Below are positions 17,795 through 63,715 of a DNA stretch of 64,000 nt, piece after piece. Numbering within the stretch: the stretch's first letter is position 1; the number at the start of each line of letters is the position of its first letter. The position numbers and the translations under genes are program-made. The notes beneath the pieces are model-generated. The model saw only the letters and a list, made by a program, of their open reading frames with translations, made no database searches and had not been told where the DNA came from. Source of the DNA: Brachycybe producta (Eukaryota > Arthropoda > Diplopoda > Playtdesmida > Andrognathidae). Location of the stretch: positions 12,742,100 to 12,806,099 of the forward strand of contig JAUPFP010000002.1 in assembly GCA_036925085.1 (NCBI GenBank), written 5' to 3'.

Positions 17795-20086
17795 ATGATA
17801 AGTTTATTGGAAAAGTTACGTTGTGGTCTTATAGAGCCAATCGCTGTGACGTACGCTGAGTCGACGAAGCGCGCTTCATCGTTAAAACAGAGCAAATTGC
17901 GGAATGTTGAGGGAGTTCATGAAGGCGGCGTCAACTCCTTAGACATTGAAAACAGCGAAGGACGCTAGTAACGAAGAAATATAAATCAAATAAACCCTCC
18001 TAATTTAGATCTAATGTTTCGCATTGTCAGTTCGTATATGTGTGTTTCTTTATTTTTAAAGTTTGTTGTGTGGCGGGACGGAAGGCACTTTGTTCATTCA
18101 CGACTTGGAGAATCACAGTGGACAACCTCAGTACACCTGTAAAGCCATCTCTAAGATTGACAGGTTAAAGAGTGCAGACTAGAAGGGCAACAAGACACTA
18201 ATCATGTCTTCAAAATTAGTTTTAAATAGAAATTTAAAGCTTCTTGAAAAGTAGAATTTATAAAAAAAATCTTTCAATGTCGCAAAAACCCTCTAAAAAT
18301 CAGACAATTTTTTTGCCAGTTTGAGGAAAATGGTTAAATTTGACGTTTTTTGGAAACTTTCTGCTCAACTTGAAGAGAAAAAACGAAAATGAATTAATAA
18401 GAATTGTCTATTTTCAGAATGTCAAATATCTAAGACGCTTTCAATTATTTATTTAAGATGGTTTTAAAGGGTTAACCTCCTTCAAACTCTGGTTATTCTG
18501 TCTTTCAAACGCAAAATGAAGAAAAACTTGAAATTATTTTTAGAAACTATAATATGGCATCTCAATCACTATTTTCATGTTGATATCTTTCAAAATAAGC
18601 TTTGTTTTTATGTAAATTTTCAAATAACTCGACTCTTTTTCCTAAAAAAAAGTTTATTTTAAAAATTTAGCCACCGTTCTAGTTTCTAAACCACTCTTCA
18701 ATGTTTTTATTTATTTAAGATGCTGCAGAAACGCAGAACAACCGTTGTTCTACCGCATTGTTTTATTTCATTTGTTTATCTTGCAGTGATTTTTAAAGGC
18801 TATTTTATGGCTATTGTTACTTTCAGCAACACCATAGGTTATCACAAACGCAGCGTTGAAACAGTCCAATGGTATCCTTTCAAGACTGAACTGTTCACAA
18901 GCAGCGGAATGGATAAGCAGCTAAACATATGGGACAAGAATCAAATGAGACTACACTATTCGTTTGTGCTTCGAGAAAAGATCTTTCAGCATCACATCTC
19001 GCCAGTCGCCACACAACATTCTCTCATCGCCGGTATGAAAAATTTACTTTAACAAAAATAATGTTTTTGTTATGTTTTATGCACAGCTCAACTTTCGAAC
19101 TCAAGTTTACTCTGCGCTTCGGAAGAGCAACACTAAAAGATACATTGATAATCTGTTAAAAACTGGAATGGTTGCTTGAATCATTTTTCAAAATATTCTT
19201 TTTATAAATAAAAAAAAAAGTTGAGACATTTTCAAATTCATATAAAAAGCTGATTTTAAAAGAAAATCAAAATGAAAATACTCTTAAGTGATTGAGTTAC
19301 CATTCTAGTTTCTAAAACACTTTCAAGTTTCTCTTAATTTTGCTTCTGAAATTCGAAATAACCAAAGTTCAAAGGGAGTTTACACTTTCTTATCAGTGCA
19401 TTAAGTTTGTCTGCACTACGTACCAATTTCCGATTTCGTTTTTTTTTATCTCAGTTGGAACCACGTCTTCACAGGTGACTCTATTCGATATGAAGTCCGG
19501 ATCGGCTACGCACAAACTAAGAGGACACAATAATGCAGTGTTGACCGTCAATTGGTCGACGAACGACGAATACATTTTGGCTTCTGGAAGTTGCGACGGT
19601 CAGATTCTGTTATGGGACATCCGATCTGCTGGACGTTTTCTTTGTTCTCTCGATCAACACGGAGGAGAACTCGATCAGAATCATCACACGGCACATCAAG
19701 GACACGTCAACGGACTTCGTTTCACGAGAGACGGTCTCTTTTTAGTTTCTTTTGGAAAAGACAATCGTCTTCGCCTCTGGAACGCAACTACAAGTCGCCT
19801 AGAGAACGTAAACTTCGGTAAGACTCCTAACGGCAGTAGGAGGACGATTAAATTCGACGTTTCTCACCACACGATACCCGAATTGGTTTACGTTCCATCG
19901 AAAACAAACATCTTGACCTACGATCTGCAAACGGGACACAAAGTGAACACGTTACTCGGACATACTGATTCGGTAAATTGCTGTACTGTGCATCCGTTCT
20001 ATCAGGAGCTTTACAGCGGAGCCAACGATGGAAATCTACTTATTTGGACGGCCGATAGTGAACAGACCACAGGGCCACCTGCGTAA
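17795..20086 (+). CDS. ERCC8: CSA-type WD40 repeat protein ERCC8 (transcription-coupled repair)
   Basis: ERCC8/CSA is the DDB1-CUL4 substrate receptor that acts on RNA polymerase II stalled at DNA damage. Four exons join in frame: 17795-17967, 18062-18163, 18827-19032 and 19455-20086, giving 370 residues (human 396). WD40 blades are evident: GGVNSLDIENSEGRYLLCGG, SVETVQWYPFKTELFTSS, LRGHNNAVLTVNWS, ILASGSCDGQILLWDI, HVNGLRFTRDGLFLVSFGKD, and YSGANDGNLLIW at the end. The human C-terminal acidic tail is shorter here. The N-terminus MISLLEKLRCG differs but the KLRNVEGVHEGGVNSLDIE block fixes the frame. Introns 2 and 3 contain hairpin-family elements. A polyadenylation signal AATAAA is at about 20178. 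Confidence 0.96.
18440..18720. mobile_element. Intronic-hairpin family copy in ERCC8 intron 2
   Basis: Contains CAAACTCTGGTTATTCTGTC, TCATGTTGATATCTTTCAAA and the inverted right-arm motifs AAAGTTTATTTT and TTCTAGTTTCTAAACCACT. Arms are diverged. A half copy with only the right arm (AAAAAGCTGATTTTA to CGAAATAACCAAAG) lies in intron 3 at about 19205-19400. Confidence 0.75.
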
Positions 20087-21480
20087 CAAATCGACGCGCT
20101 ACTCCAATCTGAATTCTGCAGTTTATTCATATTTTATAAATGAATTTTCTAAATTTAAGTCTGTAATTACATTTGTAAATAAAAACATTTTATTATTTTG
20201 AATGGGATTTTCTGATTTTTTTTTAATGAATGAAAAAACTTTGAAAAATAACCAAAATTAACCTTAAAAAAGTCGCTATTTTATATTATAACAAGGAATT
20301 CAAGGAACTTTATGGACCTTCAAAAAGGTTTTAATATAGAAAATAAATCATTTTAAAAAATATATATCTTTATTATTTTAATTATTTTTATAAAAAAAAA
20401 TAATAATAAAATTATTCACTATTCAAAATCGGATTTTTGTAATTCTTCCTCCGAAATTCCGCCTGAAATCTCAATACGATGATCAATTTCTTCTTCATTG
20501 CCTTCTTTAAAATTTAAATGAAATAAATTAAGAATTATAAAATTAAATAATTTAATTTGAAAATATAAAAAACCTTTATTTTATATAAATATTTTTATAC
20601 AAAATATTAATTATAAAAACCGTTTTTCATTATTAAAAATCATTCATTTATAATAAATACCTTTTTGCAATTTAATTATTAAAAAACTATTTTAATTAAT
20701 TATTCACCATTCAAAATCGTCTTTTTTGTGATTCTTCTTCCGAAATTCTACTGAAATCTCAATACCCTGACTAACTTCTTCGTTGTCTAATTTGGAATCA
20801 ATTTCCAACAACCGAGTGTCTTGCAAAACATCACGATTTAAATTCTTTCCGTTTCTAATGGAAAGTAAAAAAATCCTTTTCTCTGTAGTTGGAATCGGAG
20901 CCGACTGTCGAGGGTTGATCGTCTTCGACCGAAGAAGTGTCGTCGGGAGATTGCGAATCCTCGTCTCTTTGCCACATCGAATCCAAATTAATGGTTGATC
21001 TCCGAGATTCGACAGATTTACGTTCGAAGTCAATTCGGCTTCCGATTTTTTCGAAGTGTCGAAATCACCTTGGAATACCGAACCCTTACAGATCCCCACC
21101 ACTGATAACGGCTATCGAGTGCCGTTTTCACTCGACTATAGGTCCTAAAAGGCCCTAAGAGGAGCATTATTTGCTGTTTTTAAAACTTTAATGATCTATG
21201 AAGTCAATATTATTTCCTTGATTGATTACACATTTTTTTAGGGATTTGTTATTCCATCGGAATTAGTCATAAATGTTGACCGAAAATTCACTAAAAAAAT
21301 GGCATTTTTATCGTCTAAAAAGGACCATAAAAGTTGCATTAAATAAACAAAATCGAAGTTAATTAGAAACTAGAAGAGTAAATTAAAACAATGAATTTGA
21401 AAGAATTAAAAGAAACACATGATTTTGAAGTATTTCCACTGATATTAGCCAACGCCCTTGAAAAAAAAAAACGTGCAGCG
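20087..21480 (-). pseudogene. Broken, partly duplicated coding region of unknown identity
   Basis: On the minus strand 21102-20704 has coding-like acidic sequence split over two frames. One frame reads SRIDFERKSVESRRSTINLD then SMWQRDEDSQSPDDTSSVED; downstream another frame carries LEIDSKLDNEEVSQGIEIS. The final block is duplicated at 20508-20419, where it reads IEISGGISEEELQKSDFE and then stops, one base longer than the upstream copy, which is frameshifted there. No splice sites cleanly join the frames. A decayed gene, or the terminal exons of a gene I do not recognise, are both possible. The surrounding bases are very AT-rich and otherwise empty; a half hairpin-family motif lies at about 21355-21455. 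Confidence 0.35.
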
Positions 21481-24450: not shown

Positions 24451-25484
24451 ATGCTTTCTAGTCGTGGAATTTTGCAGTTTTTAATACGTTCTCATGGTTT
24501 TAAGCATTTTTCAGAAAGGAATTGGCCCTTTTCAAGATGTTTTCAACGTCAGATTGCATTCTCACCGGTGAGAAACATCACAACGACGTCTGTTGACCGA
24601 TTAAAGGAGAGTAAGTTCAAGCAAAACATCATTGAAACTCAGACCATTACTCTGGTGTTAGATTGATGTGTGTGGTCCCTTCATGTAATTGGTTATTATA
24701 ATTACTTTAAACAGTAAGAGAGACTGTGACGGACAACAAAATAGTTATTGAAGGTGCAACGATCGAATCGGAAAAGAAGGATCATCTATTCAAACCAGAT
24801 GACGGATCAACTTCGAATGCCTGTCCCTTATGTCGACTCAACTTAGACCTCGAACACACGGTTTTCGATCGAACATTCACAAATTCCGATTTCACGCTTA
24901 TTCTTTCCAAATTGTTTTTTTTTCTTTCTGCAGGATGTTCTTATCTTGGCTCAATTTGTCGAGCCTAACGGCAACATGCTTTCACGAAGAGTGACCGGTC
25001 TCTGCAAAAAACAGCAGAAACTTGTACAAGCTCTTGTCGATCAAGCGAAGAAAGCAGGTAAATAGTTTAAGAGAACCTTTTCGAATACATTTCCCATTCT
25101 CCCTCATGCCATAGTGTGGATTTTAAAATTTAAACGACCCTCCAATTCTTATTATTCATTCTTTCAGGTGCAAAATGATAAAAAAACTTGAATTAGTTTT
25201 ATAAACTAATGAAGATATCAAACGTGAAAATACCCTTACGTGTTTGAAAGACCCTTTAGTTTCTAAAAGACTTTCTAGTTTGTTTTTTAATGTTGCTCTT
25301 CTGAAACACAGAGTTCGTAAATGAGCTGTGTTCATAAACCCATCTTAATTTCGTTACAGGTTTGATGCCTAATCATTACCCGTCGTGGTTTCAAAAGAGA
25401 TATTCAAGGAAGTATGCTTGGAAGATGTTCAATCGTTACTTTGTTCCCGAACCGAGCGGCAATAAAACGAAACGTTATCAATGA
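24451..25484 (+). CDS. MRPS18A: Mitochondrial ribosomal protein S18A (mL66, bS18 family)
   Basis: This bS18-related protein is part of the metazoan mitochondrial ribosome. Four exons join in frame: 24451-24610, 24715-24860, 24934-25057 and 25360-25484, giving 184 residues (human 196). The first about 50 residues are basic and hydroxylated with few acidic residues, as expected for a mitochondrial presequence. Matches to human MRPS18A are VIEGATIE, the CPLCRLNLDLEHTDVLILAQ region with its CxxC pair near residue 85, FVEPNGNMLSRRVTGLCKKQ and AGLMPNHYPSW. An in-frame ATG at 24412 would add 13 residues; 24451 is chosen as a better presequence start. Intron 3 holds a hairpin-family copy. AATAAA at about 25510 is the likely polyadenylation signal, and the stop is only 51 bp from the convergent ESF1 stop. 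Confidence 0.93.
25115..25355. mobile_element. Intronic-hairpin family copy in MRPS18A intron 3
   Basis: Contains TTATTCATTCTTTCAGGTGC at the left and CTCTTCTGAAACACAGAG...GTTCATAAACCCATCTTAA at the right. The centre is deleted. It fills most of the intron and stops just before the splice acceptor. Confidence 0.7.
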
Positions 25485-25535: not shown

Positions 25536-28500
25536 TTATCTGTTTGGGCGTTTTTTTTTGTTGAACTGAGCGGATTTGTTTTTGACAGATTTAACGAGAA
25601 CCGACAAATCGATATTGTCGTTTGGGGGATTAAATGATGACGACGTTCCTTCTAAACCATTATTTTGTCTATTGGCTGCAGACACAGATGAACCAGAATC
25701 CATGATTCGTAATCCTTTGGCCAACATTTCTTGTTTCTCCCTGATGAGCGCCTCCATTCCTTTTGTCTTTTTGTATTTATGGTCCGATGGATCTATGTTG
25801 TACAAGTGTGAAGTAAAGACGGCAGAAAACCTTGGATCTTTTACGTTCATCTGCAACAAAAGAAAGGGGTTGTTTAAATCGACTATGTTAACAATAGATT
25901 AACGAACGGGATTCTTAAATGTTTACCTGGAAGTTGTCAACCTTCCAATCCTTTTCATCTTCGTCGCTGTTGTCGTCTTCTCTTCCTATTCCCCGTTTCT
26001 TTTTCTTCTTCTTCTTCTCCTGTGCTTCTTTCGTTAATGTTCTGAGGTCAAAGTGATGTTTATTGTCATCTTCATCCATCATCAGTAGTTCTAACTCGCC
26101 CTAGTTAGCAAGAAAAGAGTCCTTGTCTGTGAAATTCTTGCATAAGAAAAGGACAAGTTAATTCAAACCTTTTCCTTCGGGTCCATTTCAATAGGAAAAC
26201 CATCATCATCATCATCATCATCAACCTTTGATTTCTTCCGTTTATTTCCTCCTTCTAAAAGAGAATCGTTTAAATATCAATGTAAGCTTGTTTCAAAGTG
26301 TAAACACCCAAATCGAACTCGGATAATACTGTCTTTCACAAGACAAAATTAAGAGAAACTACAAAGTGTTTTAGAAAACTAGAAGTTTAGCACAATGACT
26401 TACGGGCATTTTCATGTTGATATCTTTTAAAATAAGCTTTTTATGGTCAGCTTGAAAATGACAACTTTTATATCTTTGTTTATAAAAAGTTTATTGTGAA
26501 AGATATCAACATGAAAATTCTATTAAGTCACCATTCTAGTTTCTAACACACAATTTCTTCTCAGTGTTGTTCTTTTGAATACTCGGCATTAACGAGAGGG
26601 TTCGAATAATCAACCGTTTGCAAAACATCCCGAAAAGGATTGTTTATCGAGAAACTTACTTAAAGGTTTCTTTGAGTCTGTTTTAATCTTTTTATCTTCT
26701 CCTCTATCCAAAAAGAACGGATCGTTGAAACCAAGATCCTCTGGAAGTTCGTCGTCACTGAAAGCCTTTTCTTCATCATTTCCATTTTTATCCTTTGAAA
26801 CCTGCACTTTCTTCTTATCACGATTTTTTTCTTTGTCTTTTTTTTCTACTTTCTTTTTCATCCCAAATCCTGAAAAATATAAAAACCACACATCATGTTA
26901 TAGTGTCTCTAGGCTCTTAAGGCAAATGTGAACGTCTGAGGATTCACCACTATTCCAAGTGATTTCCAGTGTCTCTTCTTCATCTTTCTTCTTTCTTTCT
27001 TCGTCGTCCAAGTTGAGTAAAAGAGCCTTGTACTTCGAAATTCTATTGTCCTCACTGGCATTATTTTCGTCCTCGTCGCTGGAGGAAATATCTTTCGTGT
27101 CGATACTTTTTTTGGGTTTTTCATCAGCTATGGAAATAGAAAAAAACAACGATAAATACATCAAACATAAACCGTACAGTCGATTTGTTTCTAACAGTCA
27201 TCTTCAGACGATGCTAAATACGCAGCCATGTCAAGTTGATCTTTGCCATCTTCCTCAAATGCACGTTGAATCAAATCCTTACGCTGTGCATCCGTTTCGT
27301 CCCACGACAACTTGACACTACTATAATGCAACGCACCGGTCCGAAAAAACTTCGGTCGATACACAGTGCTGTCTATCCCACCACTGACGGCATCTGTTGG
27401 TTGCTACAATTCAAATAAATCTTCAAACTGTTAGTATACAGCACAAGGTTAGAAACCGCTTAACACGAAATCAATGGGACCGGAATATTTTTTAATATTT
27501 AAAACGTGCATCTTGAATCCGCATACTTTTTTTAAACATAAGCAAAACATAAGTAATTTTGGAATGCTTTATATTTTACATATAATACGTATTTAAGCTG
27601 TCTTATTAACAGCTCATCTTTGAATTTTGATTATTCTGTCTTTCAGAAGAGCAAATTTAAGAGTAACTAGAAAGTGTTACAGAAAACTAGAATGGAGTAA
27701 AAAAAAACATTTTCATGTTGTTGATATGCTTCAAAATAAGCTTTTTATAGACACAATTTTAAAAAGATCTGCTGCTTTAAATTGTGTCATTTTCAAACTG
27801 CCATAAAAAAGCTTATTTTAAAAGATAAGAACATGAAAATACCCTTCTAGTTTCTAAAACACATTCAAGTATCTCTTCATTTGGCACCCAAAAGCCATAA
27901 TAACCAGAGTACAGGAGGCAATTGCACTTCAAAACCAGCTTAAAGTGCTTTTTCAAGTATGAAAAGGGTTTTACAAAAGATAATTGGAAAACGAGTTCTT
28001 GAATTTTATTCGGAATAAAAAAAAAAGATCTGACATAAGATTTTTATTGACGAGAGCAAAACATTTCTTTTTGCTAACCGTTATTTTCTTGTTATCCATT
28101 TCGTCTTAAACGAATTAAAATATAATAAAATCCTTACACTGAGAGACGATATAGAAAAATGTTTCGTGTTATCCGATTTTTCGTGTTAAACGGTTTTCAC
28201 TGTACAAACATCTCGCAATTGCTGATTTGCTTTTCTTTTTCTCTTACATCATTAAACTCCATATCCTCGGGAACAAAACGAATGTCCAATTTAGTTCCAC
28301 TGCTCTCGTACTCGAGTCCATCACATTCCATAATAATCTTATTGGCCGTATCGACAACATCACATTCCACAATGGCGTAATAATAACGTAATCGACTTAG
28401 CTCGTATTCGCGCACTTTCTCACTCTGAAAACCTTCTCCTTCTGTTACTTCTTCAGTCATTTCCCGCTCTTTTTCTGCCTTTTCGTTATACATATAACTT

Positions 28501-29670
28501 ATCTTTTTCCCACTCGTCTTCAACTCTTCGGGACCGTTCACATCCTCGTACGCTAAACGTTCACGACCGAAATCCGACAGATAAATCTTTAAACAGAATT
28601 TTTTTTAATTGATTTTTAAACTTAAGATGTCTCATAAAAAGCTGATTTTTGGACTCGTGATATTCTACAGTAGTTTCAGAAAAGCAAAACTAAACAGAAA
28701 TTGAAAACGTGTTATAAACTACAACGGTAACTAATCACTTAATAGTATTTTCATATTGAAATCTGATAGAAATGAACAAGAAAATATCTGTACAAGCGTG
28801 ATTGAGCTACAATTCTAATTTCTAAAACAATTTCAAGTTTTTTCTTAAATTTTTCTCCTAAAAAAATGAGAAAATTTCGATTAGCAGCCGCTTAGCCTCT
28901 ATGCAGGAGTACAGCTTGGAGGCTCCCGGCTTATAATCGAAAACTATCAAGAAAAAAAAAAGAGTAGATACTTTGACAGATTTAATGATTCCGCCAGCCG
29001 GCACAAAAGAATTGAGAAGAACATAAATGTCCTTTGCTTTGATGTTATCCCAGTCCAAATGACAAACGGCAAGACGACTTGTCGGTTCCGTGATTATCTC
29101 AGCATTCACATCCAATTCACCCCACGGATGAATAGTTTCTTCTTCCGGTTCTGTAAAAATATAATGAAAGTTTGAAATAGCAAAGTGGTAAAAGATTTTT
29201 GAAACGAATCATACGATGATCCACTTACCGGTATCCGAAGAATCATCGTCACTCGAACTTTCGATCATTCCTTTTCCTCTCGCCAAATCCACAGACGAAT
29301 CATCATTATCGTCGTCGTCGTCGTCTTCTTTTTGTTCTGATGTGGATGCATCTTCGATGTTCTTTCGACGAGCAACATTTTTTTTCCTATTCCTTTCTGC
29401 TTCTTCTTCATTATCAGAATCATCGTCGTCGTCTTCAGAGGAGGAAGAAGAGGAAGAAAGCTCGTAAAAGCGCTTAAGGTCTTCTTTAGTTGAGTGATTA
29501 GTCGGTCGTCCTCTTTTGTCCACCGTATAATTGAGCCTGAATTTCTCATCTGTGAACATTTCCTGGAATCTGCTATCGATCTTGACTTTTCTTTCATGTC
29601 GAGGAAGTTCTCTGAAACGCACATCTTTAGTAAGATGTGCGAAACGTTTATCCCTTGTCATACGATACAT
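25536..29670 (-). CDS. ESF1: ESF1 nucleolar pre-rRNA processing protein
   Basis: ESF1 (ABT1-associated) is needed for early 18S pre-rRNA processing in the nucleolus. Nine exons join in frame: 29670-29229, 29150-28972, 28586-28248, 27403-27196, 27127-26948, 26869-26660, 26254-26169, 26100-25927 and 25850-25536, giving 710 residues (human 851). Conserved blocks are DSRFQEMFTDEKFRLNYTVD near residue 32, KRGRPTNHSTKEDLKRFYEL, the Ser/Asp runs, DLARGKG, TSRLAVCHLDWDNIKAKD (RRM-like N-terminal ESF1 domain), RLRYYYAIVECD, VKLSWDETDAQR, and the NUC153-type C-terminus DPRFSAVFTSHLYNIDPSDH near 610. Long Asp and Lys tracts are normal for this family. Introns 3 (28247-27404), 2 and 6 carry hairpin-family elements. 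It is convergent with MRPS18A and divergent from GCC1. Confidence 0.96.
26290..26600. mobile_element. Intronic-hairpin family copy in ESF1 intron 6
   Basis: Left arm ACAAAGTGTTTTAGAAACTA...TTCATGTTGATATCTTTTAA is mirrored by AAAGATATCAACATGAAAAT...CACCATTCTAGTTTC. One of the clearer full copies, with arms of roughly 130 bp around TTTATGGTCAGCTTGAAAAT. Confidence 0.85.
27600..27950. mobile_element. Intronic-hairpin family copy in ESF1 intron 3
   Basis: Shows TTGATTATTCTGTCTTTCAG, GCTTCAAAATAAGCTTTTTA and the inverted AAAAAGCTTATTTTAAAAGA, ending AAAAGCCATAATAACCAGAG and CACTTCAAAACCAGCTTAAA. Another diverged copy lies in ESF1 intron 2 at about 28625-28860, followed by the short shared motif AAGCGGCTGCTAATCGAAA also found in XPO5 intron 1. 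Confidence 0.85.
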
Positions 29671-30714: not shown

Positions 30715-33513
30715 ATGGCTGATAAAAAGGATTTACTAAAAACTATCGAAGAACAACAACAGAAGCTTAATCTTTACGAGAAACGTCTCCGTGGTGAGCA
30801 AACATATGTGACACGAGAAAATTAAAAGAGAGACGTGGATGTCATTTGAGTTTGTGTCCGATTGCCTAACATTACAATTAAGTCTTTTTTTCTTCTAATT
30901 AGATGTTATCACTGCGTACAAATCGCTCGTCAAGGAGAAAGAAGCACTGGAGGCAAGTTTAAAAGCCCTGACACATACGTCTGTCAGTACAGCCACATCG
31001 GACCAAAACAACAGCTCGGATCCTTCGAACCAACAAGAATCAGTAAATGGCTTTTCATAATAATTCGTATCGTCTTCCTACGAAACTGAACTTTTATCTT
31101 TAGAATGAAACTGACCGAAATTCGGATGTTCGTCTCCGTGAGAAGGTGTCCACGTTAACTCTTGCTTTGACCACACTGACCGAAGAAAAGACACGAATGG
31201 AAACCAGTTTTCAGGCAGACAAGAAGAAACTGAAACGAGAAAAAGAAGAACTAGAAGTCAAATTAAAGAAAAAGTGTGAAGATGCCGAAAAGAGCGAACG
31301 ACACTTAAGCGAACGAAATGCAGAAGTAGAAAGTCGATTTCCCATTTTCTTTTTTCATTCGTTAATCATTTCACTTTCCAATGCATACCAGTTGATTTCC
31401 AAACTAAGAAGTCATCAAATGGAACGTGAGAAAGAACAGAACAATCACGCGATTATGTTGAGAGAACTTCAAACGTTGGTAGCATTGGAAAGGAGTGCGA
31501 AAGAAGAACTCGAGAACCAGTTGGACGATCTGCATAGAAACTTAGACAAGAGAGATCCGATTCACGATAAATGCGAGGAATATCGACAACAAATCAGAGA
31601 TCTATCGAACGAATTGCAGGTAGTGAGAGGTAGGATGAAAGCGGCCGAGGAAAGGGCGTCGCAAACGCAGCCGATACTCGTCAAATTACAAGAAGAGATG
31701 GTCGACGTCAAGGTATTTCGTATACATTCTTCGGAAAACAAGTTCATTCACCGATACGTTCATTTTTTTTAAAAAGGCACAAAATCAAGACGCGATCCTT
31801 CGCGAACAATGTCGTGCAAACGAAGCTGAGGACAGATTGCAACAGACGGCGAGGTTGAGCGAAGATCGAGTGGCTAGTTTGGAGTTGAAGTTGTCCGAAT
31901 TGTCCGAGATCGTTGGAAGTAACGAAAGAGTAAGACAACAGGATCAACAGGCCATTCAGAGATTGAAGGTGATACATCGATCAACGAATCGTTATGTTGC
32001 TTTCGATTGAGAGGATATTGGAGCTGCATCGAAAATGATTATAATTCTAGTTTGAATTAAGCTGCGTCAACATTTTGAATCTCATTTAAAACTAGAAGAG
32101 CAAATAAACAAAAGACAATTTGTACAATAATATTTTTTAAAATAAACTTTTTATGGCAATTTTTTTATTTTTTTGGATGGAAAAAAATGCCATAAAAAGT
32201 TTTATTTTTAAAGCAACGTTTTTGAATACTGAGGTTAATCTTCGTTCCTCTTCTTTCAAAGGAGAGAGTTGCTCAGTTGGATATAGAAAACACGGCTCTC
32301 GTACTTGCGGCAGGCCACGCACGTTCCGAAGAAAAGTCCGACGATAACGACGAAGACCTCAACTTGGATGCACAGAGTTTAGTACAAAAGATTATCAAGT
32401 TAAAAGGATTATTAAAAGTAGCGAACCAGAAATCACAGAATGCAATAAATATCGAGGGTAACTAGCAGCTTTTGAGATTCTTTTTCGAGTCAAAAGAATG
32501 AAACATTTCTTAAATCTCGTACAGATTTCTTGAGACGAGAAGGTTTTATGATGGAGCCAGACCATGAAGCTTGTAAAGAAGAACTGTTCAGACTAAAAGA
32601 AGAATTCGAACGGTATAAACAGCGAGCACATTCGGTGCTCAAGAACCGTAACACGAGAGATGGAGATTCTTACAAAGAAGTTGAAACTCTCAAATCCGTC
32701 GTGACCGATTTAAAAAACAAGGTTAGAAAGTTAACGGAAGAAATGGAAGAACGAGAAGCGGATCATCTGCGAAGAATTCAAGGTATGGAGGCCGCAATCG
32801 TAAGCGACAAGTTGCAGAATTCTCAAAAACAGGCCAAAAGAGAAACAGAGTTCAAAACGACGGTCGCCGAATTAGAAAGTGAGATGCAGAAACAACGAAC
32901 GAGGACCATTGCACTAGTTGAGGAGAAAGACGCAGAAATGAAACTACTCAAAATGTCCCTCGGTATTTTAAAACCGTCCTCGAGAGAACGGAAAGACGAA
33001 GACGATGACGAAAACGTCTTTTCCAGAGAAGGAACGGACTCTGCGACAGAATCGTTATCTTCCGAACTATCTCGACTTCTCTCTATGGGTCATCGAGATG
33101 GACATTTACTCCATTATGCGCAAGAGATTGCAAAAAAAGAAGCCGAAGTGTCGAACCTACGAAGAAACAAACACCAATTGGAAGGAGCATTACGTGAACT
33201 TCAAGCGACCGTCGTTGCGAGAGACGAAAGACATTATGACGAAATAGAAAACCTTCAGCTGGAGATCGGACGTCTGAAGAGAAACTGCTCTCGAGAAGGA
33301 GCAAATCTGGAATACTTGAAGAACGTCGTCCTCAGCTACATGTTGAGCTCTGACGCGAACAGTAGACGACACATGTTGAATGCCATTGCGACTCTTCTGA
33401 AATTCAGTCCAAAAGAACTGCACAACGTTACGCAACATAACGCTTCTCGGTGGTGGCAACAACCTTCGACTCCTACTTCGTCGTCATCTGCAAGCAGATC
33501 CGATGGTCATTGA
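30715..33513 (+). CDS. GCC1: GRIP and coiled-coil domain protein 1 (GCC88, trans-Golgi golgin)
   Basis: GCC1/GCC88 is a long coiled-coil golgin recruited to the trans-Golgi network through its GRIP domain and Arl1-GTP, tethering endosome-derived vesicles. Seven exons join in frame: 30715-30793, 30903-31042, 31104-31325, 31392-31712, 31777-31968, 32262-32457 and 32525-33513, giving 712 residues (human 775). The N-terminal DLLKTIEEQQQKL and AYKSLVKEKEALEASLKAL blocks match human GCC1. Most of the protein is heptad-rich. The C-terminal GRIP domain EGANLEYLKNVVLSYML, then RHMLNAIATLLKFSPKE, sits at about residues 635-690. Intron 3 (31326-31391) is 66 nt, stop-free and a multiple of three. Intron 5 carries a short hairpin-family copy (32085-32235). 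It converges on TSNAX. Confidence 0.95.
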
Positions 33514-37018: not shown

Positions 37019-39254
37019 TTAGACGACAACTTTTTTATTTTTAACCACGACAGGAAATCGAGTCATTTTCGACTTGTCAAAATTATCGTTCCTTAACAAA
37101 CAGAGCCAAACGTTCGGTGTTTCGTAATTATATCTTTCCTTTCCATCATCGTACGGTATGTGCCAACCGGACGACGACAATTGAGCAACGTGATTGTGAC
37201 GTAAAGGAGTCTGCGAAAATAAAAACAACAAGAAAACGGTGAAGAAACGAATTTCGTCTGCCTTCATATGAAATTCACCTTAAAACGTAGAGGTTTAAAG
37301 GGATTTACGGTAAGAAGTTCCAATTGGTGGCCATTCTGCCACCTTTTAAAGAGTGACTTCAATTCATTATCTTGTAGACAAAAGAGATGGTCTCGTAACA
37401 TGTCCTTAGAAACGAAAAACGTTCCTTGACCACTGTACATTGCAGCATAGATCATAAAAGGATCGTCTTTTGACCTGAGTATAAATGAAACAATCCAGAT
37501 CACCAGTAACAAGTAACGGGAAAAAACGGTAACTCACAAGTTATCTGCAAAAAACAAATGACACAATTCGTTAATCTGTTTCATGATGTTTTTTGGCCAC
37601 GTTCCCATGTGATGTCTTCCCAAAATCAATGGTTTACGTGAAGCGTTTCCATTTTCGCTCAGCTGTAACACAGCTTTAAGTAACTGAAATCCAATCAAAA
37701 TTCACAAGAGTTCTTTAAGAATGATATATACGAAGAAAAGTGGGGCGGGGAGGACCTGGTCAGCAAGAAGAGAAGACGAGATCAAACGTTTGCTTTGAGC
37801 AAAAGCAATGTTTAGACCATCAATAACGACAGAGTATGGAGCAGTTTTCGCAACAAATCGTTTAAACTTCCCCAACTCGTAAGGATTAGTCTTGAGATAG
37901 ATGTCGGGACCTTCGATGACCTTAGAGATGAAATTCAGTTTCAGTTTCTCGAAATCGGAATCGCTCAACCGAACATTTTCAAAAGAAGCTTCGCAATTTC
38001 GACATTTTCCTCTTTAAAACAACAATTCAATACATTAATGTGAAATATTTTGCATTTAAGGTGGTTTTAAAGTGCAAACGGCTCTCGAACTTTGATTATT
38101 CTGTCTTTCAAGTTTCTCTTCACTTTGCTTCTTTACGACAGAATAACCCAAAGTTTGAAAATGAGCTTTTCTTAATTCATCTTAATAACAGCAGTTACTC
38201 TCGAGTGTTGGTTGTAAATGTTCCAGTCCAATCTTCGTCCTTTCGTCTAAAGAAGAAATCAAAAAAATGAAACATTTATTATGTTTTAAAAAAACAAAAA
38301 CTGTTCCCACCCTTCAAACCAAAACTTTATTTCTTCCGCAGTTGTTTTCGAAATGAGTGTACCGTGGTCCCGTATCAAACAGAGCAATCGTTCAACCATC
38401 GATTTCTGATTGGATTCGTTTGTTACACGAATCACATCCATCCACTTCAAAAGGATTTTATCGACAGAAAGGCTGGAAGCCTTTGACGCCAGTTCTTCCA
38501 AATGTCCCCATCCATACTCATGGTCGCCATATGTGAAAGAAGCCATTATTAAGTCTTCATAGATATTCTGTGGCATTGAACTGTTCGTGACCGAAACAGA
38601 TTCGACGTATGGAAGGCATTCTTGCCAACGTTTCGTTTGACACAAACTGTGAACGATATCTGAAACGGTGAGAACATCGAATACCGAATGCCGCTTCCTA
38701 ATCTCTTCATACGTCTCAATAACGACTTTCTTTTCACATTCGTCTGGACAGTCGGCACAAAGTCTCAAATATTTTGCTAATGTCACCAAATTCGGTTGTT
38801 TGTTGGACATTCGCATCCAATTCATTAGTGAATTACCAAGAGAATAATTTTGCTTTAAAGAGCATGCATACATTGCTTGACTTTCAAAGTTACTCTTTGA
38901 AACCAATATTTCCCTTTCAGCTTTATTTCGTAATTCCTCCCATTCCAGCGAATTTAGAACTTTGACTGATGAAGCAACTTCTTCAAACCAATGTTTAGGT
39001 GTTTTTTTCTTGAACGAACCAGTCTCCAATTCTCTCGTGTTAACGGAATTTTCCGAAATGCGTCGGCCTGCGACCGAAAAATATCTTAAAAATTGTGATT
39101 TCATGAGATTAAAGTTGGTTTTACTGTGAATTTCAAACAGTTCTCGCTTGAAAATACGTTTAACTGCATTTAAATTATGTTTCCGCCTAGAAAATGCTAA
39201 AACCGATCTGTTACACAGTACCTCAACGTTACAAATTGCCATTTTCCCTGCCAT
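37019..39254 (-). CDS. PRORP: Protein-only mitochondrial RNase P catalytic subunit (MRPP3)
   Basis: PRORP cleaves the 5' leader of mitochondrial pre-tRNAs, with TRMT10C and SDR5C1 as partners in animals. Six exons join in frame: 39254-38311, 38246-38199, 38011-37756, 37683-37538, 37474-37279 and 37210-37019, giving 593 residues (human 583). The first 60 residues are basic and fit a mitochondrial presequence. A helical PPR-like region fills the rest of exon 1. The zinc-binding CRNC pair is followed by the NYN metallonuclease: VVIDGLNIA (first catalytic Asp), LILGRHHMG, LSKDDPFMIYAAMYSG (paired Asp), VSKDMLRDH (fourth Asp), and late zinc-binding GWHIPYD with WLC. All four acidic residues are present, so activity is expected. 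Intron 2 carries an internally deleted hairpin-family copy (38050-38190). Confidence 0.96.
38050..38190. mobile_element. Internally deleted intronic-hairpin element in PRORP intron 2
   Basis: Starts TTTAAGGTGGTTTTAAAGTG, continues TTTGATTATTCTGTCTTTCA and immediately joins the opposite end (ACGACAGAATAACCCAAAGT). Most of both arms is missing, leaving only the outer portions. Confidence 0.75.
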
Positions 39255-43155: not shown

Positions 43156-43159
43156 ATTG

Positions 43160-47770: not shown

Positions 47771-47771
47771 A

Positions 47772-48212: not shown

Positions 48213-48464
48213 AAGAAGTAAAGCGCGCGCCTCAAAAGTTAGGCCTGATTTAGAGTGGGCGTGGTTAGAGTTTCTATAGATGTTATTAACATTTCTAGAA
48301 ACTTAATAATGTTAATAGCATATGTTATATCAACAAATGAGACAACAACACTTCGTAGGCTGATTTTTAATATTTTTTTAAAAAACATTGGTAACAAACT
48401 AACAACACTTGTTATCAGCAATGTTACCTGTTGTCTAAAATGGCGTCCAGACTAGAATGATCAT

Positions 48465-48900
48465 AAACTAGAATGGTAGGCCATACTGAATCACCTAAAA
48501 CAAACTTTTTATGAAAGTTGGGTTAGACTATTTTCAAACTGCCATAAAATGTTTATTATGAAATTATATCAAACACGAAAATACTATAGACTATTCGTCG
48601 TTGTTTGGGCTAAACCCCTTCTAGTTTCTAAAACACTTCCTATTTTTTCGTAATTATTTTACTGAAAGACAGAATTAGCTACCTCATTATACAAAAAGAA
48701 AATGAAGTATCGTCGTAAGACAGTAGAGGGCCTATAAATTGTCATAAGCTATAACTAATAACTTTTGACTGTCACAAAGGACTGTCATGACTATGACAAA
48801 TATTGTAATATCACTGTCATTGACAAGCAGTGACATCATATAAATTATAACTGATTTTGGAACTCCGGATCCTCATCCGGAGTTCAAAAATCAGCAGTTC
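48465..48900. mobile_element. Hairpin-family copy and a separate small hairpin
   Basis: 48465-48690 carries AACTAGAATGGTAGGCCAT, AACTTTTTATGAAAG, TTTATTATGAAATTATATCA and CCTTCTAGTTTCTAAAACAC with CTGAAAGACAGAAT. At about 48850-48897 a perfect stem CTGATTTTGGAACTCCGGAT closes over CCTC. Sequence to 49577 is AT-rich without gene signals. Confidence 0.65.
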
Positions 48901-51350: not shown

Positions 51351-51574
51351 CGGTTTTTTTTTTCTCATTTTTTCATAAAATTGAAGGACCACAAAATAAA
51401 GAAGAAATTGGGGGGAGTATACGAGGTGGGGACAAGAGAAGGAAAAAACCGCCTTAGGAATGAGGAAAATGTCAATTTTCTTAAAAAATAAAAATTAACT
51501 TAAATTAAACAAATTAAATAAGGCCTACTGTGTGTTAACAATAGAAAATATATGTTGGCTTTATTTTTTGTGTA

Positions 51575-54150: not shown

Positions 54151-54745
54151 TTTAGACTTTTTTATAGACCAAATTTAAAAAAAAATATCGTCTGCTTAAA
54201 AGTATAGTCATTTTCAAACTTGACAACATAAAATGTTTATTTTGAAAGATATCAACATGAAAATACTCCTTAAGTGATTGAGCTATGTTTTTAGTTTCTA
54301 AAACACATTCAAATTTCTCTTCATTTTTCATCTGAGTAATTATAGTCAAAACGCAGATAAAAAATATAGTCTACGTCCCATTTTTCACCAGTTGAAATTT
54401 TCCAAAAGTTGAAATTTTCATCTCAACTTGAAACAAGGCCTAAAGTATAAATGTCTCTCGAACTTTTGATTATTCTGTTTTTCAGGTGCAAAATGCAAAG
54501 AAACGTGAACGTGTTTTTTATGTCGTTTTGAAAATGACTCAATTTTAAACAGACGATTTTTAATTTTTGCCTATAAAAAGTTTATTTTAAAAGATATCAA
54601 TAGGAAAATACCTTTTACGTGATTGAGCTATCCTTCAGTTTCTAAAGCATTTTCTAGTTTCTCTTAAATTTGCTCTTCTGAAAGACAGAATAATTAGAAT
54701 TCGAACAATCAGCTGTTCATAAACCATTTAAAGCAGAAATTTACA
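54150..54745. mobile_element. Two adjacent intronic-hairpin family copies
   Basis: Copy 54150-54370 keeps mainly the right arm (TTTATTTTGAAAGATATCAA, CTCCTTAAGTGATTGAGCTA). Copy 54425-54745 has both ends: CGAACTTTTGATTATTCTGT at the left and TCTTCTGAAAGACAGAATAA with CAGCTGTTCATAAACCATTT at the right. They lie just beyond the 3' end of PIGH. Confidence 0.8.
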
Positions 54746-54869: not shown

Positions 54870-55988
54870 TCATGAGAAACGATTTCCCGTTTCGTTGTTC
54901 AAAATCATTGTGTTCACACAATTATAAACCTGAATTAGGAAGTTAAGGCGAGGCCAAGTCGACTGTAAATACAAGAATAAACATCATTTCGATAATTAAA
55001 AACATATATTGTTTCATATTGAAATTTCATACTGGAAAGATAATCTGCATCTCTTTGGAATCTTCTTTAAGAATGACTGCTAAGTAGTACAATATACAAT
55101 GCTGAAACATATAAAAATAAAATTTATTTTCATCTGTTAACACGTGAAGAAACCCGAAGGTTTACCATTGTAATGCCTTCGTTTATGATAAAAGCTTCGA
55201 TCGAGTGAGATCCAATAAATTTGGATACTTTGCGGCCACTGACAAACGTCGTAGTCAACTGTAGGCCCATGGAAGAAATGACTAGCAACGATTCTTTGTA
55301 ATACAAAAACAGTATTAATCAGTAAACGACAACGACAAAGAGTTCACACAAAATGATACCCTTTTGAACTGTTAAATGAACCTTTAGAATCAAAGCGAAG
55401 ACTAAAATCACGCACAGAAATCCCTGAGTGTACGAATTCTGTTCGAAAAACGAGAAAATGAATAAGTATAACGATGTTATTTTGTAGTTAAGGTGGTCTT
55501 AAAGTTTAAACGCACCTCAAACTCTGGTTATTCGGTTTTTCAAGTGCAAAATGAAACAACTAGGTGGTTTGGAAACTAGAATGATGGCTCAGTCACTTAA
55601 GTGTATTTTATTCTTTGATATCATTCAAAATGAACTTTTTTTCGTGAGTTTGAAAACGAAAAACAAGCAGATGATTATTTTTTAAATTTAAGTCTATAAA
55701 AAGTTTATTTTCAACTTCTCCCCAGTGTTGCTTCTGAAAAACAGAATAACCAATAGTTCGAAAATTAGCTGTTCATAAACCCCCGGTCTTAAAACAAACC
55801 AGATTATGCAAATTGAGGGCGTATAAAAGGGCGGAAAAGCAGAAACATTTAAAGAGCCAACTAAAGAAGTTGAACGGCCGACGTTCGACGACGAACTCTT
55901 TACATCTCGATAAAACATCGTGTTGAACCGTACGACAAGTTAAACGCGTTCCCAACACGTTCCTTTGTGTCTCAACAACTTCTTTCAT
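54870..55988 (-). CDS. PIGH: PIG-H, subunit of the GPI-GlcNAc transferase
   Basis: PIG-H belongs to the ER-membrane complex that transfers GlcNAc to phosphatidylinositol, the first step of GPI-anchor synthesis. Five exons join in frame: 55988-55800, 55438-55360, 55293-55166, 55101-55033 and 54962-54870, giving 185 residues (human 188). There are two hydrophobic segments, WLFKCFCFSALLYAL near residue 45 and GFLCVILVFALILKV near 70, forming the membrane hairpin. The cytosolic PIG-H domain follows: ESLLVISSMGLQLTTTFVSG, FIINEGITMHCILYYLAVIL, and a last exon TWPRLNFLIQVYNCVNTMI matching human KPRLDCLIEIYRSCQEIL. Intron 1 is occupied almost entirely by a hairpin-family element (55490-55795). It is divergent from CFAP36. 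Confidence 0.93.
55490..55795. mobile_element. Intronic-hairpin family copy in PIGH intron 1
   Basis: Starts TTAAGGTGGTCTTAAAGTTT, continues CAAACTCTGGTTATTCGGTT and AATGATGGCTCAGTCACTTA, and ends AAAAACAGAATAACCAATAG with CTGTTCATAAACCCCC next to the exon 1 donor. The element is about 85% of the intron. Confidence 0.85.
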
Positions 55989-56381: not shown

Positions 56382-58729
56382 ATGGAAGGCGATAAAGAAG
56401 ACAACGGCTGGGTATTTGAGTCCTTGGTTGGATTTCTTACGGGACCTGTTTGGAATATTCCTATCATGAATTTCATCGAAAACAAATCATCGGGTACAAC
56501 AAAAAAAAACGTCCTATAAAAATAATTTAACTTAATTTAAAGTATAAACACCCTTCGAACTCCGATTATTCTCTTGTATTTCAGAAAGACAAATTAAGAG
56601 AAAGTGTTTTAGAAACTAGAAGGGTAGCTCAATCACTTAAGAGTATTTTCATATTGACATCGTTTAAAATAAGCTTTATTTCAATCTTTAAAAAAAATCC
56701 TATTTTAAACAGAAGATATAAAAAAGTTTATTTTGAAAGATATCAACATTTAAATACTATTAAGTGATTCTGCTACTCTAGAAATTCTAGTTTCTAACAC
56801 TTTCAATTTCTTCTTAATCAGAGTTTGAAGGGAAATTAACCTTTAAAAACCACCTTAAACAATTTCCCGTTCTTGTAATTCTGTTGCAGTTTTCGATCCG
56901 AACGAAGATAACCAAGAGGAATACATGAAAATCCACGAAGAGTTTAAGAATTTGGTTTGTTTTAGATTCAAACAATTCATAAAACATATAAATAATACCT
57001 AAAAGAATCATGTTTTTGTATTCTTTCCGCATTTGAAGGTGGATCTCATGTTGAATAGTTTCACACAAGACTTAGGAATCACTGGCGAACAATTTGAAAA
57101 AGCTTGCGTCCAGACAACGGGCGACATGGTTACTTCACAACTGCAAAAAGTTAACCCCATTATGCAAATTAACCAAGCTGCATAAATGTTGACACAGGAA
57201 CAACATTATGATAAAATTCAAATTGTTTTCAAAACTAGAATGGTTCAAGATTAGGCCATACTGCCATAAATAGTTTATTTTGAAAGATGTCAACAAAAAA
57301 AAAAAAACGTTTCGCAATATCACCAACTATTTTAGTTTCTCAAACATTATGAATTTTTTCAGAATGGTTCATCTGAAAAACGTTTGATTGAAAACCGTAA
57401 ATTGTCGCAGAATCGCGGAGAGAAATTGTTTTTACTTTCAGTGTATATAATTAATGTGGCGAGATAGTTGAATCGAGTCACATTAATTATACGGAAAGTA
57501 ACAACAAAACAATTGTCTCATTTTTCTGCATTTATTTAAGACGTTGTTCGATCAGATTTGGGCTGCCGAAGATTATTCCGTGTTTGTTCGCATGATGATT
57601 CAAAAGAATACCGAGTTACAACTTCAGGCATTAGAGTTTCTAAAAGGAAGAGGAATCTCGTTCGATACGAGCGACGACTCCGTAGGTGCCGACGAATACA
57701 ACGATAACGACATTCTCAAAGAAGCGTTGCGTCAATCGTTCGAGGAACACAAAAAAAATGCGAGTCAAAGCAACAAAGAAGAAGAAGATCTCAAGAAGGT
57801 TCTTGCGGCTACAATCGATGAAGAGAAACGTCGACTTCAGTTAGAAAAACAAGCAGATCAACAACTTTTGCAAAAAGTAGCAAAATCTAATCATTAATTC
57901 TTACAATCTTTTAATCGCTCCCTCTCTGAGCATTTAGTTGCTTTCTCTCGTAGGCAATACAACTGTCATTGGAGCAGGGTGGAGCAACCGGGGGAGAAAG
58001 AGGAGCAGGAGCAGGAGACCGTCCGGCCTCGTTGAGTCCATCTTCGGACGATGTCGTAACGATGCCGATCGAAGAGCCGAAAAAAACGAACATGACAGAC
58101 ACTGGAAATAAACCAGTATTAACTTTTTATTAATTTATTTAAGGTGGTTTTAAAGTGTAAACGGCGTCTCTCGAACTCTGTCCTTCAGGAGCAAAATTAA
58201 GATAAACTAGAAAGTGTTTTAGAAACTAGAAGAGTAGCAGAATTACTTAAAAATATTTTCATAAAAAGCTTATTTTTGAAAGACGTGAAAATACCCTTAA
58301 ATGATTGAACTAGTCTTCTAGTTTCTAACACACTTTCAAGTTTCTCTGAAAGCCAAAATAATCTGAGTACGAAGAAGACCCGTTTACACTTTAAAACCAC
58401 CACCTTAAATTAATAGCACAGATTCAATCTAATACAAATTGTGTCTTAAGGAAATATCCCAAGAGGAGATTGCCAAGAGACAGTCTTATCTACGTCAACA
58501 GCGAGACAAATTGGTAGCTTTGAAGATGAAAAAGAGGTTACAACACTTGGATGAAATCGGTAAAGTGGAAGGAGCCGACTCGAGACCGAGGTCGGCAAAA
58601 GTTGCGAGAGATGCGCTTCAAAACAAAACCAGCGGTCACGAAGAATCGGATGTCAACCCTAAGATGTTGGCTGCAAGACACGCTCTCGTTGCAAGGCTCA
58701 AAGCCGAAGTTCTTGCAAAAAAAGACTAA
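56382..58729 (+). CDS. CFAP36: Cilia and flagella associated protein 36 (BART-like domain)
   Basis: CFAP36 (CCDC104/BARTL1) binds active ARL3 at the base of cilia through a BART-like helical domain. Six exons join in frame: 56382-56493, 56890-56954, 57039-57149, 57541-57876, 57954-58115 and 58451-58729, giving 354 residues (human 342). The BART-like domain covers roughly residues 8-125: WVFESLVGFLTGPVWNIPIM, YMKIHEEFKNLVDLMLNSF, DLGITGEQFEKAC and IWAAEDYSVFVRMMIQKN. A Gly/Ala-rich linker GGATGGERGAGAGD follows a coiled coil. The last exon, EISQEEIAKRQSYLRQQRDK, matches the human C-terminal coiled coil; its acceptor (GTGTCTTAAG) is pyrimidine-poor and was chosen on frame. The upstream frame is open to 56208 but the ATG at 56382 matches the family. 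Introns 1, 3 and 5 carry hairpin-family DNA. AATAAA is at about 58747. Confidence 0.93.
56530..56875. mobile_element. Intronic-hairpin family copy in CFAP36 intron 1
   Basis: Left arm CGAACTCCGATTATTCTCTT...AGAAACTAGAAGGGTAGCTC and right arm AAAGATATCAACATTTAAAT...TCTAGTTTCTAACACTTTC, ending TTTAAAAACCACCTTAAACA. It fills nearly all of the 396-nt intron. A half copy is in intron 3 (57205-57390). Confidence 0.85.
58135..58415. mobile_element. Intronic-hairpin family copy in CFAP36 intron 5 with intact termini
   Basis: This is the copy with the clearest ends: TTTAAGGTGGTTTTAAAGTG at the left and CACTTTAAAACCACCACCTT then AAA at the right. TTAA-type sequence adjoins both ends (TTATTTAAGG and CCTTAAATTAA), which would fit a TTAA target but also the element's own ends. 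About 280 bp, filling most of the 335-nt intron. Confidence 0.85.
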
Positions 58730-60787: not shown

Positions 60788-61270
60788 ACACTTATGATTC
60801 ACCTAAGAACGACTTTTAAGTGGACGATAAATACTGTAAAAAGTGGTCAACGTGTGGCCGAAACCCATCAATCGAGTGTCGACTGCCAGCGGTTTGGAAG
60901 TGGTTCTTATGTAATTGAATGAACTTCAAAAACCACTTTTTTGCAGCACATCTCGGCCACTAAAACAGCTTTGAAAAATATGAATTGTCATTTTTTGTCC
61001 AATTCGAATAAAAAATCTACTATTAAGTGTTTCTTTTACTCTTCTAGTATCTAAAACTCCTTTAAATTTCTTTATTCTTAATAATGCATTTCTAAAAAAA
61101 CGCAGAATAACTGGGAGTTCTATATTTATATTCTTTCATTTTGCATATTTTTACAAAATAGTTGATTTACAAAAATAATTTCGTTATTTTTGTATAATTT
61201 ATGTGATTTTTTATGACAAACACAACTCCTCTGTCTATGTATTGAATTAACCAATGAAGAAGAACAAAAA
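60788..61270. other. GSTZ1 3' region
   Basis: AT-rich, convergent 3' flanks of GSTZ1 and the 61271 gene. CACTTTTTTGCAGCACATCTC near 60938 is acceptor-like but no exon follows. A hairpin-family fragment (TTTTACTCTTCTAGTATCTA) is at about 61031. Confidence 0.45.
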
Positions 61271-62163
61271 TCAGTCAAAGATATCTTCTCCGACAAACAG
61301 ATAGTTCCCTGGAACCGTTCTCAAAGAAACGATCGCTTCGATTCTACGTTTTTGCTCCACAGAACGCTTCACTCCAGGCCCAGAAGAGTAACTGGAGGTT
61401 ACGGAACGATCTCCAGATCCTTCAATCACTTTACATCTTCTTTCGTTCCACAACATCTTAAGGTTTTGTATCCGTTGAGCCCTTGGAGTACGAGGAACGG
61501 TCTGTTCGGCTGCAAAACCAAACGAACGGACGTTATACTGAACGTGTTATAGCGATTTTCGAGTGTAAACAGGGATTATCGAACTCTCATTATTATGTCT
61601 TTTCAGGCAAAAAAATTAAGGAGAAACATGACACTGTTTTAGAAAATAAAGGAGTAACTCCAATCACTGAAGGTTATTTTCGCATTGAAAATAACCGCCA
61701 GTTCAACTTTGTAAAACACTTTGTAGTTTCTCTTTAATTTTGCTCTTCTGAAAGACAGAATAATCATTAATCAGAGTTCAAAAATCAGCTGTTCATAAAC
61801 CATCTTAAGGCAAAAAGAATTTTCATTTAACGCTTCCGATTATACCCTGAGATGGAACGGTTAACGTTGTGGTTGTCGATCTCGACGAAATTGACGACAC
61901 GGATGAAGCCGCCGGGGTACAAGGAACATTTTGTTCTCTACTGAAACCACTCGATGCTTGAGAACGAGCTGCAGCATAAAAATAAAACACAGCGTAAAGA
62001 AAAACCACAATCAAATGACATTTAGTATTTTACTTTGAAAGTTTTGAGGTCGTGACAATGGAGACGAATTGGGAACCTCAAAAAACGATGTTTTCAAGTG
62101 TCTTTCATTCAAATACGGTGTCGATGGCACTTCCTGATAGCCAGAATCTTGCGTATACATCAT
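61271..62163 (-). CDS. Uncharacterised Ser/Thr-rich protein, 163 residues
   Basis: I do not recognise this protein. Three exons with good GT-AG borders join in frame: 62163-62034, 61968-61846 and 61509-61271. The N-terminal half is Ser/Thr/Pro-rich and low complexity: MMYTQDSGYQEVPSTPYLNE, then SSVSSISSRSTTTTLTVPSQ. The last exon is more conserved-looking and basic, with QTVPRTPRAQRIQNLKMLWN, RSVEQKRRIEAIVSLRTVPG and the ending NYLFVGEDIFD. Two TP sites (STP, RTP, CTP) could be proline-directed kinase targets. No membrane segment or signal peptide. Two ATGs stand in tandem at the start (62163 and 62160). Intron 2 contains a hairpin-family copy. Gene reality is supported by consistent phases (1 and 1) across introns. 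Confidence 0.7.
61555..61810. mobile_element. Intronic-hairpin family copy in the 61.3-kb gene
   Basis: Left end TCGAACTCTCATTATTATGT; right end TTGCTCTTCTGAAAGACAGA with TTCATAAACCATCTTAA. The centre is deleted between GAAGGTTATTTTCGCATTG and its surroundings. It fills most of the 336-nt intron 2. Confidence 0.8.
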
Positions 62164-62339
62164 TAAAGATCTAGTTGAATCCGATCTTTATGATCTTTTC
62201 TTGTAAAAACGAAAGGAATTTGAAGAAAATGTCAATTTCAAGTGCGCCGCCATGTTGTGTTTTTCTATCCGTTTAATCCAGAGTGCAAAGAGCTAACTAC
62301 ATACAACAAAAAAAAGCTGAAGGGAACGACACGGAAGAA

Positions 62340-62530: not shown

Positions 62531-62544
62531 CCTTTAATAAGACA

Positions 62545-62775: not shown

Positions 62776-63109
62776 ACCTAGTGATCTGAGCGCTCCATAT
62801 AAATTACATCTGCTATATTTATACACGGCTGTCTGCAAGTTCCACATGAGTGAGTGCATTTGAAAATTACGACATACAGTATAAACAGTAGCGTGATTGA
62901 ATGTAACTGCATAGACATCTATGGACATGACGTCATAACAGCGCCAAAGTGCAGTTTTACTGCAGGAGTTAGAATCTTATAAATTTTGGCGGCTAATTCC
63001 ACTCGTGGCATTAATTAAAGAGATGTCAGATCGTCGAAAGAAACATAAATTACTTCTGGCGCGAATACAAGGTTTTTGTTGGAACAATTCATAAAATAAT
63101 ATCGAGATT

Positions 63110-63715
63110 AATATTTGAAACTAGAAGAGTAAATGATTGAAATATATAAAAGTATTTCCATGTCGATATCTTTAAAATTAACTTTTTATTGAACTTAGAA
63201 GATGAAAAGTGAGTTTTTTTTTAATGTTTTAAGGTTTTAAAACTTTAAGAAAAAAGTTTATTTTAAAGAATATCGCCATATCAAGGACAAATACACATTC
63301 CTTTACTCTTCTAGTTTCAAATATTTGTTCAAATTCTTTTAACATGTTTTAGAAAAAGGTAAATTTGGAAAATAAATCTGCGTTTCAGGAGCAACAAACA
63401 CGAAGAAAAATTTAACTTGAAGGGTAGCTAAATCGCGCTTAATTGTATTTTCATGTTGAATATCTTTCAAAATATAACTTTTTTATAAACAAAAATTAAA
63501 AAAAAAGCACACTTGAAGTTGGGACATTTTTAAACAGATATAAAAATGTGATTTAAAAAATATTAAACATGAAAATAACCCTTAAGTGATTGAGTTATAT
63601 CCTTCTAGTTTCGAAAAAACCTTTCAAGTGTTTTGTCATTTACCTCCTGAAAAACAGAATAACTAGAGTTAAAGGGACTCCGGTGTTTACATTTGAAAAC
63701 CATCTTAAAAGTTGG
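63110..63715. mobile_element. Two hairpin-family copies of different subtype
   Basis: 63110-63340 is a subtype with ends TTTGAAACTAGAAGAGTAAA and TTTACTCTTCTAGTTTCAAA, CCATGTCGATATCTTTAAAA inside. 63390-63715 is closer to the common type (TTGAAGGGTAGCTAAATCGC, CCCTTAAGTGATTGAGTTAT, ACTCCGGTGTTTACATTTGA). Both are upstream of the exon at 63792. Confidence 0.75.

Follow-up and report, generated by a model that had tools for sequence, protein, structure and literature searches.

Here we describe a family of hairpin elements that recurs through a 64,000-nucleotide stretch of the diplopod Brachycybe producta (assembly GCA_036925085.1, contig JAUPFP010000002.1, positions 12,742,100 to 12,806,099 of the forward strand; hereafter the window, in whose coordinates positions are given). 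With a probability of about 0.85, the family represents a non-autonomous DNA transposon, namely a Kolobok-like miniature inverted-repeat transposable element (MITE) of about 378 bp that inserts at TTAA, is old and decaying, and whose intronic copies are mostly insertions into short introns that already existed. This class of element is already known, and the points of interest are the near-complete palindrome and its load in tiny introns.

Structure, target site and age of the hairpin family

The consensus of the family, as read by hand, measures 378 bp. Each unit in the seed loci opens with TTAAGGTGGTTTTAAAGTGTAAACG, continues through an arm of about 160 bp, a loop and the mirrored arm, and closes with GTTCATAAACCATCTTAA, so that the arms span nearly the whole element and make it an almost complete palindrome, with 163 paired positions, a predicted fold of -221 kcal/mol and a longest uninterrupted helix of 79 bp. 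The end sequences are TTAAGGTGG or TTAAGATGG, the termini read TTAA-GG...TC-TTAA, and an acceptor-like CTGTCTTTCAG is present in each arm. The family is short, non-coding, present in high copy number and bounded by terminal inverted repeats, as MITEs are. The 28 seed loci carry an intact 19-bp end; eight were taken automatically and 20 were picked by hand from the genome match list, and the automatic majority consensus aligned 21 of them, the seven others being dropped for their divergent interior. Rfam at the gathering score gave no match in the window, and a literature search, which carries little weight, returned no recognised description of the family. One seed locus, L018, was considered as a longer autonomous element and rejected, as matches of its inner 577 bp elsewhere span only about 55 bp; many of these matches fall in a tandem array of units of about 305 bp on contig C33, which from its appearance we take to be 5S rDNA.

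Evidence for the TTAA target comes from the flanks and from places where copies meet. By eye, TTAA stands at the right end of 13 of 16 near full-length copies, at the left end of 13 of 16 (a count biased by the selection of seeds for an intact left end) and at both ends of 11 of 16, and the outer flanks vary among copies, except in copies adjoining another copy. In ten of the 29 listed pairs of adjacent matches, the junction is an element end with one TTAA in between (L003, L021, L022, L024, L026, L059 twice, L060 and L062 twice), the rest being mostly breaks within one copy; newer copies here join older ones across one common TTAA, which is what duplication of a TTAA target would produce. At the self-junctions examined, no nested copy was recovered with the two halves of its host on either side. 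Insertion beside another copy of the family was seen by eye in seven of the 28 seed loci (25%; L003, L008, L021, L022, L024, L025 and L026), compared with the 6.7% of TTAA sites that lie within copies (p = 0.002), or with a stricter share of 9.0% taken from copy-bearing stretches only (p = 0.010). Two loci, L024 and L059, have copies placed directly against units that begin at an internal TTAA (consensus position about 71), and alternative end use is possible there.

The family is old and abundant. Across the genome (295 Mb, 442 contigs), the 19-bp end has 5,742 matches with at most two mismatches (2,885 and 2,857 by strand) against 35 (17 and 18) for the reversed pattern. A random sample of twenty 10-kb stretches (200 kb), regularly spaced on contigs C1-C4 (59.5 Mb), contains 29 places that cover 3.9% of its bases, with eight of the 20 stretches holding none; extrapolated to 295 Mb this would give some 43,000 places, on the basis of an uneven sample from contigs that make up one fifth of the genome. 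Substitutions relative to the consensus amount to 7.2-16.7% (mean 11.1%) in the 37 copies that cover at least 260 consensus positions, the best full-consensus matches genome-wide are 85-93% identical (40 of 6,095 candidates scored), and no young copy was seen in either set. On contig C1, no exact hairpin-end match is listed between about 10.7 and 19.9 Mb, an interval that overlaps a stretch rich in piggyBac matches (about 5.5-18.4 Mb, holding 63 of the 93 in the genome), and the repeat make-up differs in this region.

Copies in the introns of the window

A profile built from genome copies and matched to the window at E 1e-4 finds 22 copies in 21 merged places (one place holds two), which together cover 5,365 bp, 8.4% of its length, while the reversed window sequence gives none. 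The original prediction, made from the letters of the window, had counted about 19 copies of one foldback between 18440 and 63715, and 19 of the 22 do lie there; the other three stand at 4996-5342, 6956-7071 and 8554-8613. The four motifs quoted for that foldback recur there with at most three mismatches, the window as a whole holding 8, 8, 9 and 16 occurrences of them, where 0.00-0.15 are expected from shuffled sequence. The copies are listed below, with strand where one was assigned; each is a profile match, joined to a gene model where a gene is named, unless stated otherwise.

4996..5342, - strand: near full-length copy outside gene models (nhmmer E 1.3e-43)
6956..7071: partial copy outside gene models
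8554..8613, - strand: 60-bp end fragment in an XPO5 intron
18453..18755, + strand: copy in an ERCC8 intron (intron ends uncertain)
19073..19388, - strand: copy in the next ERCC8 intron (19033-19454)
25118..25348, + strand: copy in the last MRPS18A intron, ending 11 bp before the acceptor (hand-added exon)
26283..26629, + strand: copy making up 85% of the ESF1 intron 26252-26659
27594..27943, - strand: copy in the ESF1 intron 27404-28247
28626..28891: rearranged copy in the ESF1 intron 28587-28971
32085..32213: partial copy in the GCC1 intron 31969-32261
38056..38184, + strand: short copy (both ends, no core) in the PRORP intron modelled at 38012-38319
48451..48679, - strand: partial copy outside gene models
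54156..54336, - strand: partial copy 3' of PIGH
54440..54729: copy 3' of PIGH
55488..55781, + strand: copy in the PIGH intron, about 55439-55799 (hand-added gene)
56536..56858: copy making up 82% of the CFAP36 intron 56494-56889
57195..57382, - strand: partial copy in the CFAP36 intron 57129-57540
58133..58414, + strand: compact copy with both ends in the CFAP36 intron 58116-58450 (the profile match covers 58139-58401; the ends were extended by eye)
60971..61123: partial copy a short way downstream of a glutathione-transferase-like gene (gene named by eye; profile match)
61554..61808: copy in the modelled intron 61510-61865 of the 61.3-kb gene
63114..63338: partial copy outside gene models
63346..63708, - strand: copy outside gene models

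Fourteen of the 22 copies are intronic and eight lie outside gene models. Intronic copies occur in nine of the 13 gene spans examined, where they account for about 24% of the intron base pairs, in keeping with the claim that the element occupies introns of most genes in the window; the gene models bear out its placement in ERCC8 (two introns), MRPS18A, ESF1 (three), GCC1, PRORP, PIGH, CFAP36 (three) and the 61.3-kb gene, and the XPO5 fragment adds one more. That copies often fill more than 80% of their intron was an overstatement, as this applies to four of the 14. In each of the 14 introns, a distance of 11-304 bp separates the copy ends from the modelled splice sites, the lower value being that at the MRPS18A acceptor by exon ends (the intron table gives 12). 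To judge from this short distance (window 25118-25360), the branch point of that intron is probably inside the transposon copy.

When the copy is subtracted, 51-119 bp are left in nine of the 14 introns, and these residues resemble the element-free introns, 18 of 33 of which measure 58-84 bp (the rest run from 91 to 1,460 bp, some of the longest being doubtful models). The simplest history is thus that copies inserted into already existing introns. Copy-bearing introns run from 293 to 422 bp in 11 of 14 cases, and the hairpin copies explain much of the variation in intron length in this gene-dense window. Most intronic copies would accordingly represent insertions into ordinary short introns, and they may have been tolerated because both splice sites were left untouched, a position that is seen on the gene models.

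The window holds 1.27 copies per kb of intron and 0.23 per kb elsewhere, a difference with p = 1.1e-4 when tested by length and 1.6e-4 when tested by TTAA sites, and 12 of 22 remain intronic without the hand-added MRPS18A and PIGH (p = 0.0015), although these window values are optimistic, as the region was reported because of its intron pattern. In the 200-kb sample, predicted introns make up 20% of the non-coding base pairs and contain eight of the 29 places (p = 0.21), on rough models in which exons may be missed. The proposed intron enrichment therefore stands for the window (14 of 22, p = 1e-4), where copies are frequent in introns, but copies are not significantly enriched in the sample of four contigs, which lends no support to enrichment genome-wide.

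Mobilisation, intron origin and folding of the hairpin

According to PMC9587614, TTAA targets occur in both piggyBac and Kolobok, and RR..YY termini separate Kolobok from piggyBac. The hairpin family has TTAA at its self-junctions and flanks and 5'-GG ... TC-3' beside it, and since this target and these termini fit the RR..YY pattern, we regard it as Kolobok-like; ends and target together would suggest a link to a Kolobok transposase. Kolobok-superfamily MITEs share the target, the termini and the inverted repeats, and their mean length in insects, as given in PMC5199201, is about 386 bp against 378 bp here; the hairpin family differs in that its arms cover almost the whole element, and its affiliation is read from its ends. 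KolobokP composite elements are likewise described in PMC9587614 as having a TTAA target and tandem copies that share an end, but they carry long direct terminal repeats and code for protein, whereas the hairpin element has inverted arms, is too short to encode one, and forms tandems that look like one copy inserted at another's TTAA, unlike those composites. The same MITE could have been mobilised by a transposase of piggyBac, the other common TTAA-specific superfamily, whose genes are resident in the genome (PF13843 has 93 matches, of which the nine best lie in open frames of 559-624 aa) and whose derived MITEs share the TTAA target. However, the terminal bases differ in the very feature said to set Kolobok apart, and none of the ten piggyBac loci examined among the 93 matches carries the family ends within three mismatches, one having a single end at four, so that we regard this route as unlikely. 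A quite different origin would be that of introners, elements that land in exons, create the intron and supply its splice sites. PMC9860276 describes introners as short, non-autonomous transposons that occupy many introns, as the hairpin copies do, some of them with inverted repeats and 4-bp target duplications; the fill above 80% in four introns and the CTGTCTTTCAG in each arm would agree with such an origin. Yet introners bring their splice sites or take them at the insertion site, which places their ends at the intron ends, and the hairpin copies are not introners because their ends stand off from the splice sites in every modelled intron; with a residue of normal short-intron length in nine of 14 and eight copies outside gene models, we consider an introner origin extremely improbable.

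For the Kolobok-like MITE, a transposase made elsewhere, of which none was found, presumably cut and pasted the element; the family would have multiplied to tens of thousands of copies, by extrapolation, and then fallen silent as far as the copies seen tell, and the existing copies appear to be decaying. Several points weigh against this interpretation. In five of the 14 introns, 164-494 bp are left when the copy is subtracted. No autonomous partner with the family ends was found among the ten piggyBac loci, no search for a Kolobok transposase having been made, and one piggyBac locus (L056) holds two fragments of the hairpin family. At L024 and L059, the host copy lacks the second half that would be expected, for which we have no full explanation. 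Lastly, strict double (compensated) changes number 45 in the arms against 27.9 in shuffled arms (sd 4.5), an excess that the interpretation does not require.

In the pre-mRNA, a copy would fold into a hairpin with interruptions and be removed together with its intron on splicing. The prediction of a stem of over 100 bp per full copy holds in so far as copies could still fold, with 39-117 pairs in total in 19 of the 22 window copies folded alone, but the stems are interrupted and their longest uninterrupted helix is 7-23 bp against 79 bp in the consensus. In the 37 measured copies, pairing is nearly what neutral decay would leave, apart from a slight surplus of matching between the arms: neutral mutation simulated on the consensus with the same change counts gives nearly equal fold energies (mean z -0.54, 23 of 37 copies negative), and 3,884 of 4,460 cells are paired against 3,861.7 in shuffles (sd 7.3). 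Subfamilies, gene conversion between the arms or weak selection could each produce this excess, which is present outside introns too. Retention of intronic hairpins by selection for an RNA role, be it in splicing, in circular RNA formation or as an ADAR or Dicer substrate, would find support in the intron enrichment of the window, in pairing slightly above the neutral simulation, with all six copies labelled intronic at negative z (-0.15 to -1.21), and in the compensated changes. These intronic values are, however, no stronger than those of the other copies (+2.72 to -4.89), the helices are short, the enrichment in the 200-kb sample is not significant and subfamilies could account for the matching of the arms, which makes selection for such a role very unlikely. 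Conservation of the hairpin by selection was rejected as a candidate, the excess being weak and seen outside introns too.

Purging of the acceptor-like AG from the sense strand was also rejected. In a first set, which included seed loci picked for an intact end, 6 of 14 YAG were kept in sense against 69 of 91 elsewhere (p = 0.016); in the window and the random stretches with corrected models, purging is unsupported, with 9 of 16 kept in sense, 7 of 12 in antisense and 18 of 23 outside (p = 0.23 with the weak models L029 and L047 left out; p = 0.17 before two introns were added). Here we speculate, while holding the idea doubtful, that the palindrome might render the element 'intron-safe': the transcript would fold, and the stem would hide CTGTCTTTCAG and draw the splice sites of a tiny intron together, letting introns of several times the normal length splice, and the element might also prefer TTAA sites within earlier insertions of its own family. 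Since one hairpin is present in thousands of copies that have decayed to differing degrees, the genome could provide a natural series for the study of how much intronic double-stranded RNA is tolerated, edited or diced by a cell.

Gene models and other features

The first version of the self-trained gene finder chained junk exons, and a stricter one was used instead, which missed the last MRPS18A exon and all of PIGH; both were added by hand, and these additions, being aimed at genes named beforehand, favour introns. ERCC8 and MRPS18A have search results of their own, as does PIGH through PF10181 at 55154-55291. Domain matches are GRIP for GCC1, NUC153 for ESF1 and BART for CFAP36, the exact names of these three being taken from the original prediction, and XPO5 rests on Xpo1 and a sub-threshold Exportin-5 match. 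Further gene matches in the window are to actin, translin, a mitochondrial RNase P subunit and, below threshold, PRORP. The models are weak for the 61.3-kb gene, whose second exon scores 1, and for PRORP, which has an in-frame stop at an exon join. The ends of the first ERCC8 intron were read by hand from the output of the first gene finder, and its acceptor may be 18825 instead of 18779. By exon ends (55439-55799), the PIGH intron has a fill of 81% and a residue of 67 bp, where the intron table has 85% and 51 bp. In the random stretches, genes that by eye resemble COQ8 and DHDDS hold family copies in their introns.

The window also contains a different, nested inverted repeat at 50846-51293, with outer arms of 104 bp (88% complementarity) and inner arms of 60 bp (95%) that are better preserved than in most copies of the hairpin family, and several further inverted repeats at 1767-3968, with arms of up to 109 bp at 94% complementarity. 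Long open frames of short tandem repeats on both strands at 43108-43893 and 51538-52345 are probably minisatellites, not genes. Elsewhere in the genome, a mitochondrial COX1 lies on contig C442 and by eye gives a good reading if AGR is taken as serine and AAA as lysine, judged against the residues that we take to be expected; such a code points to a protostome. Further COX1 matches at C1:12697416-12698753 and C17:4027703-4029047 are probably nuclear copies of mitochondrial DNA, that on C1 being nearly intact.

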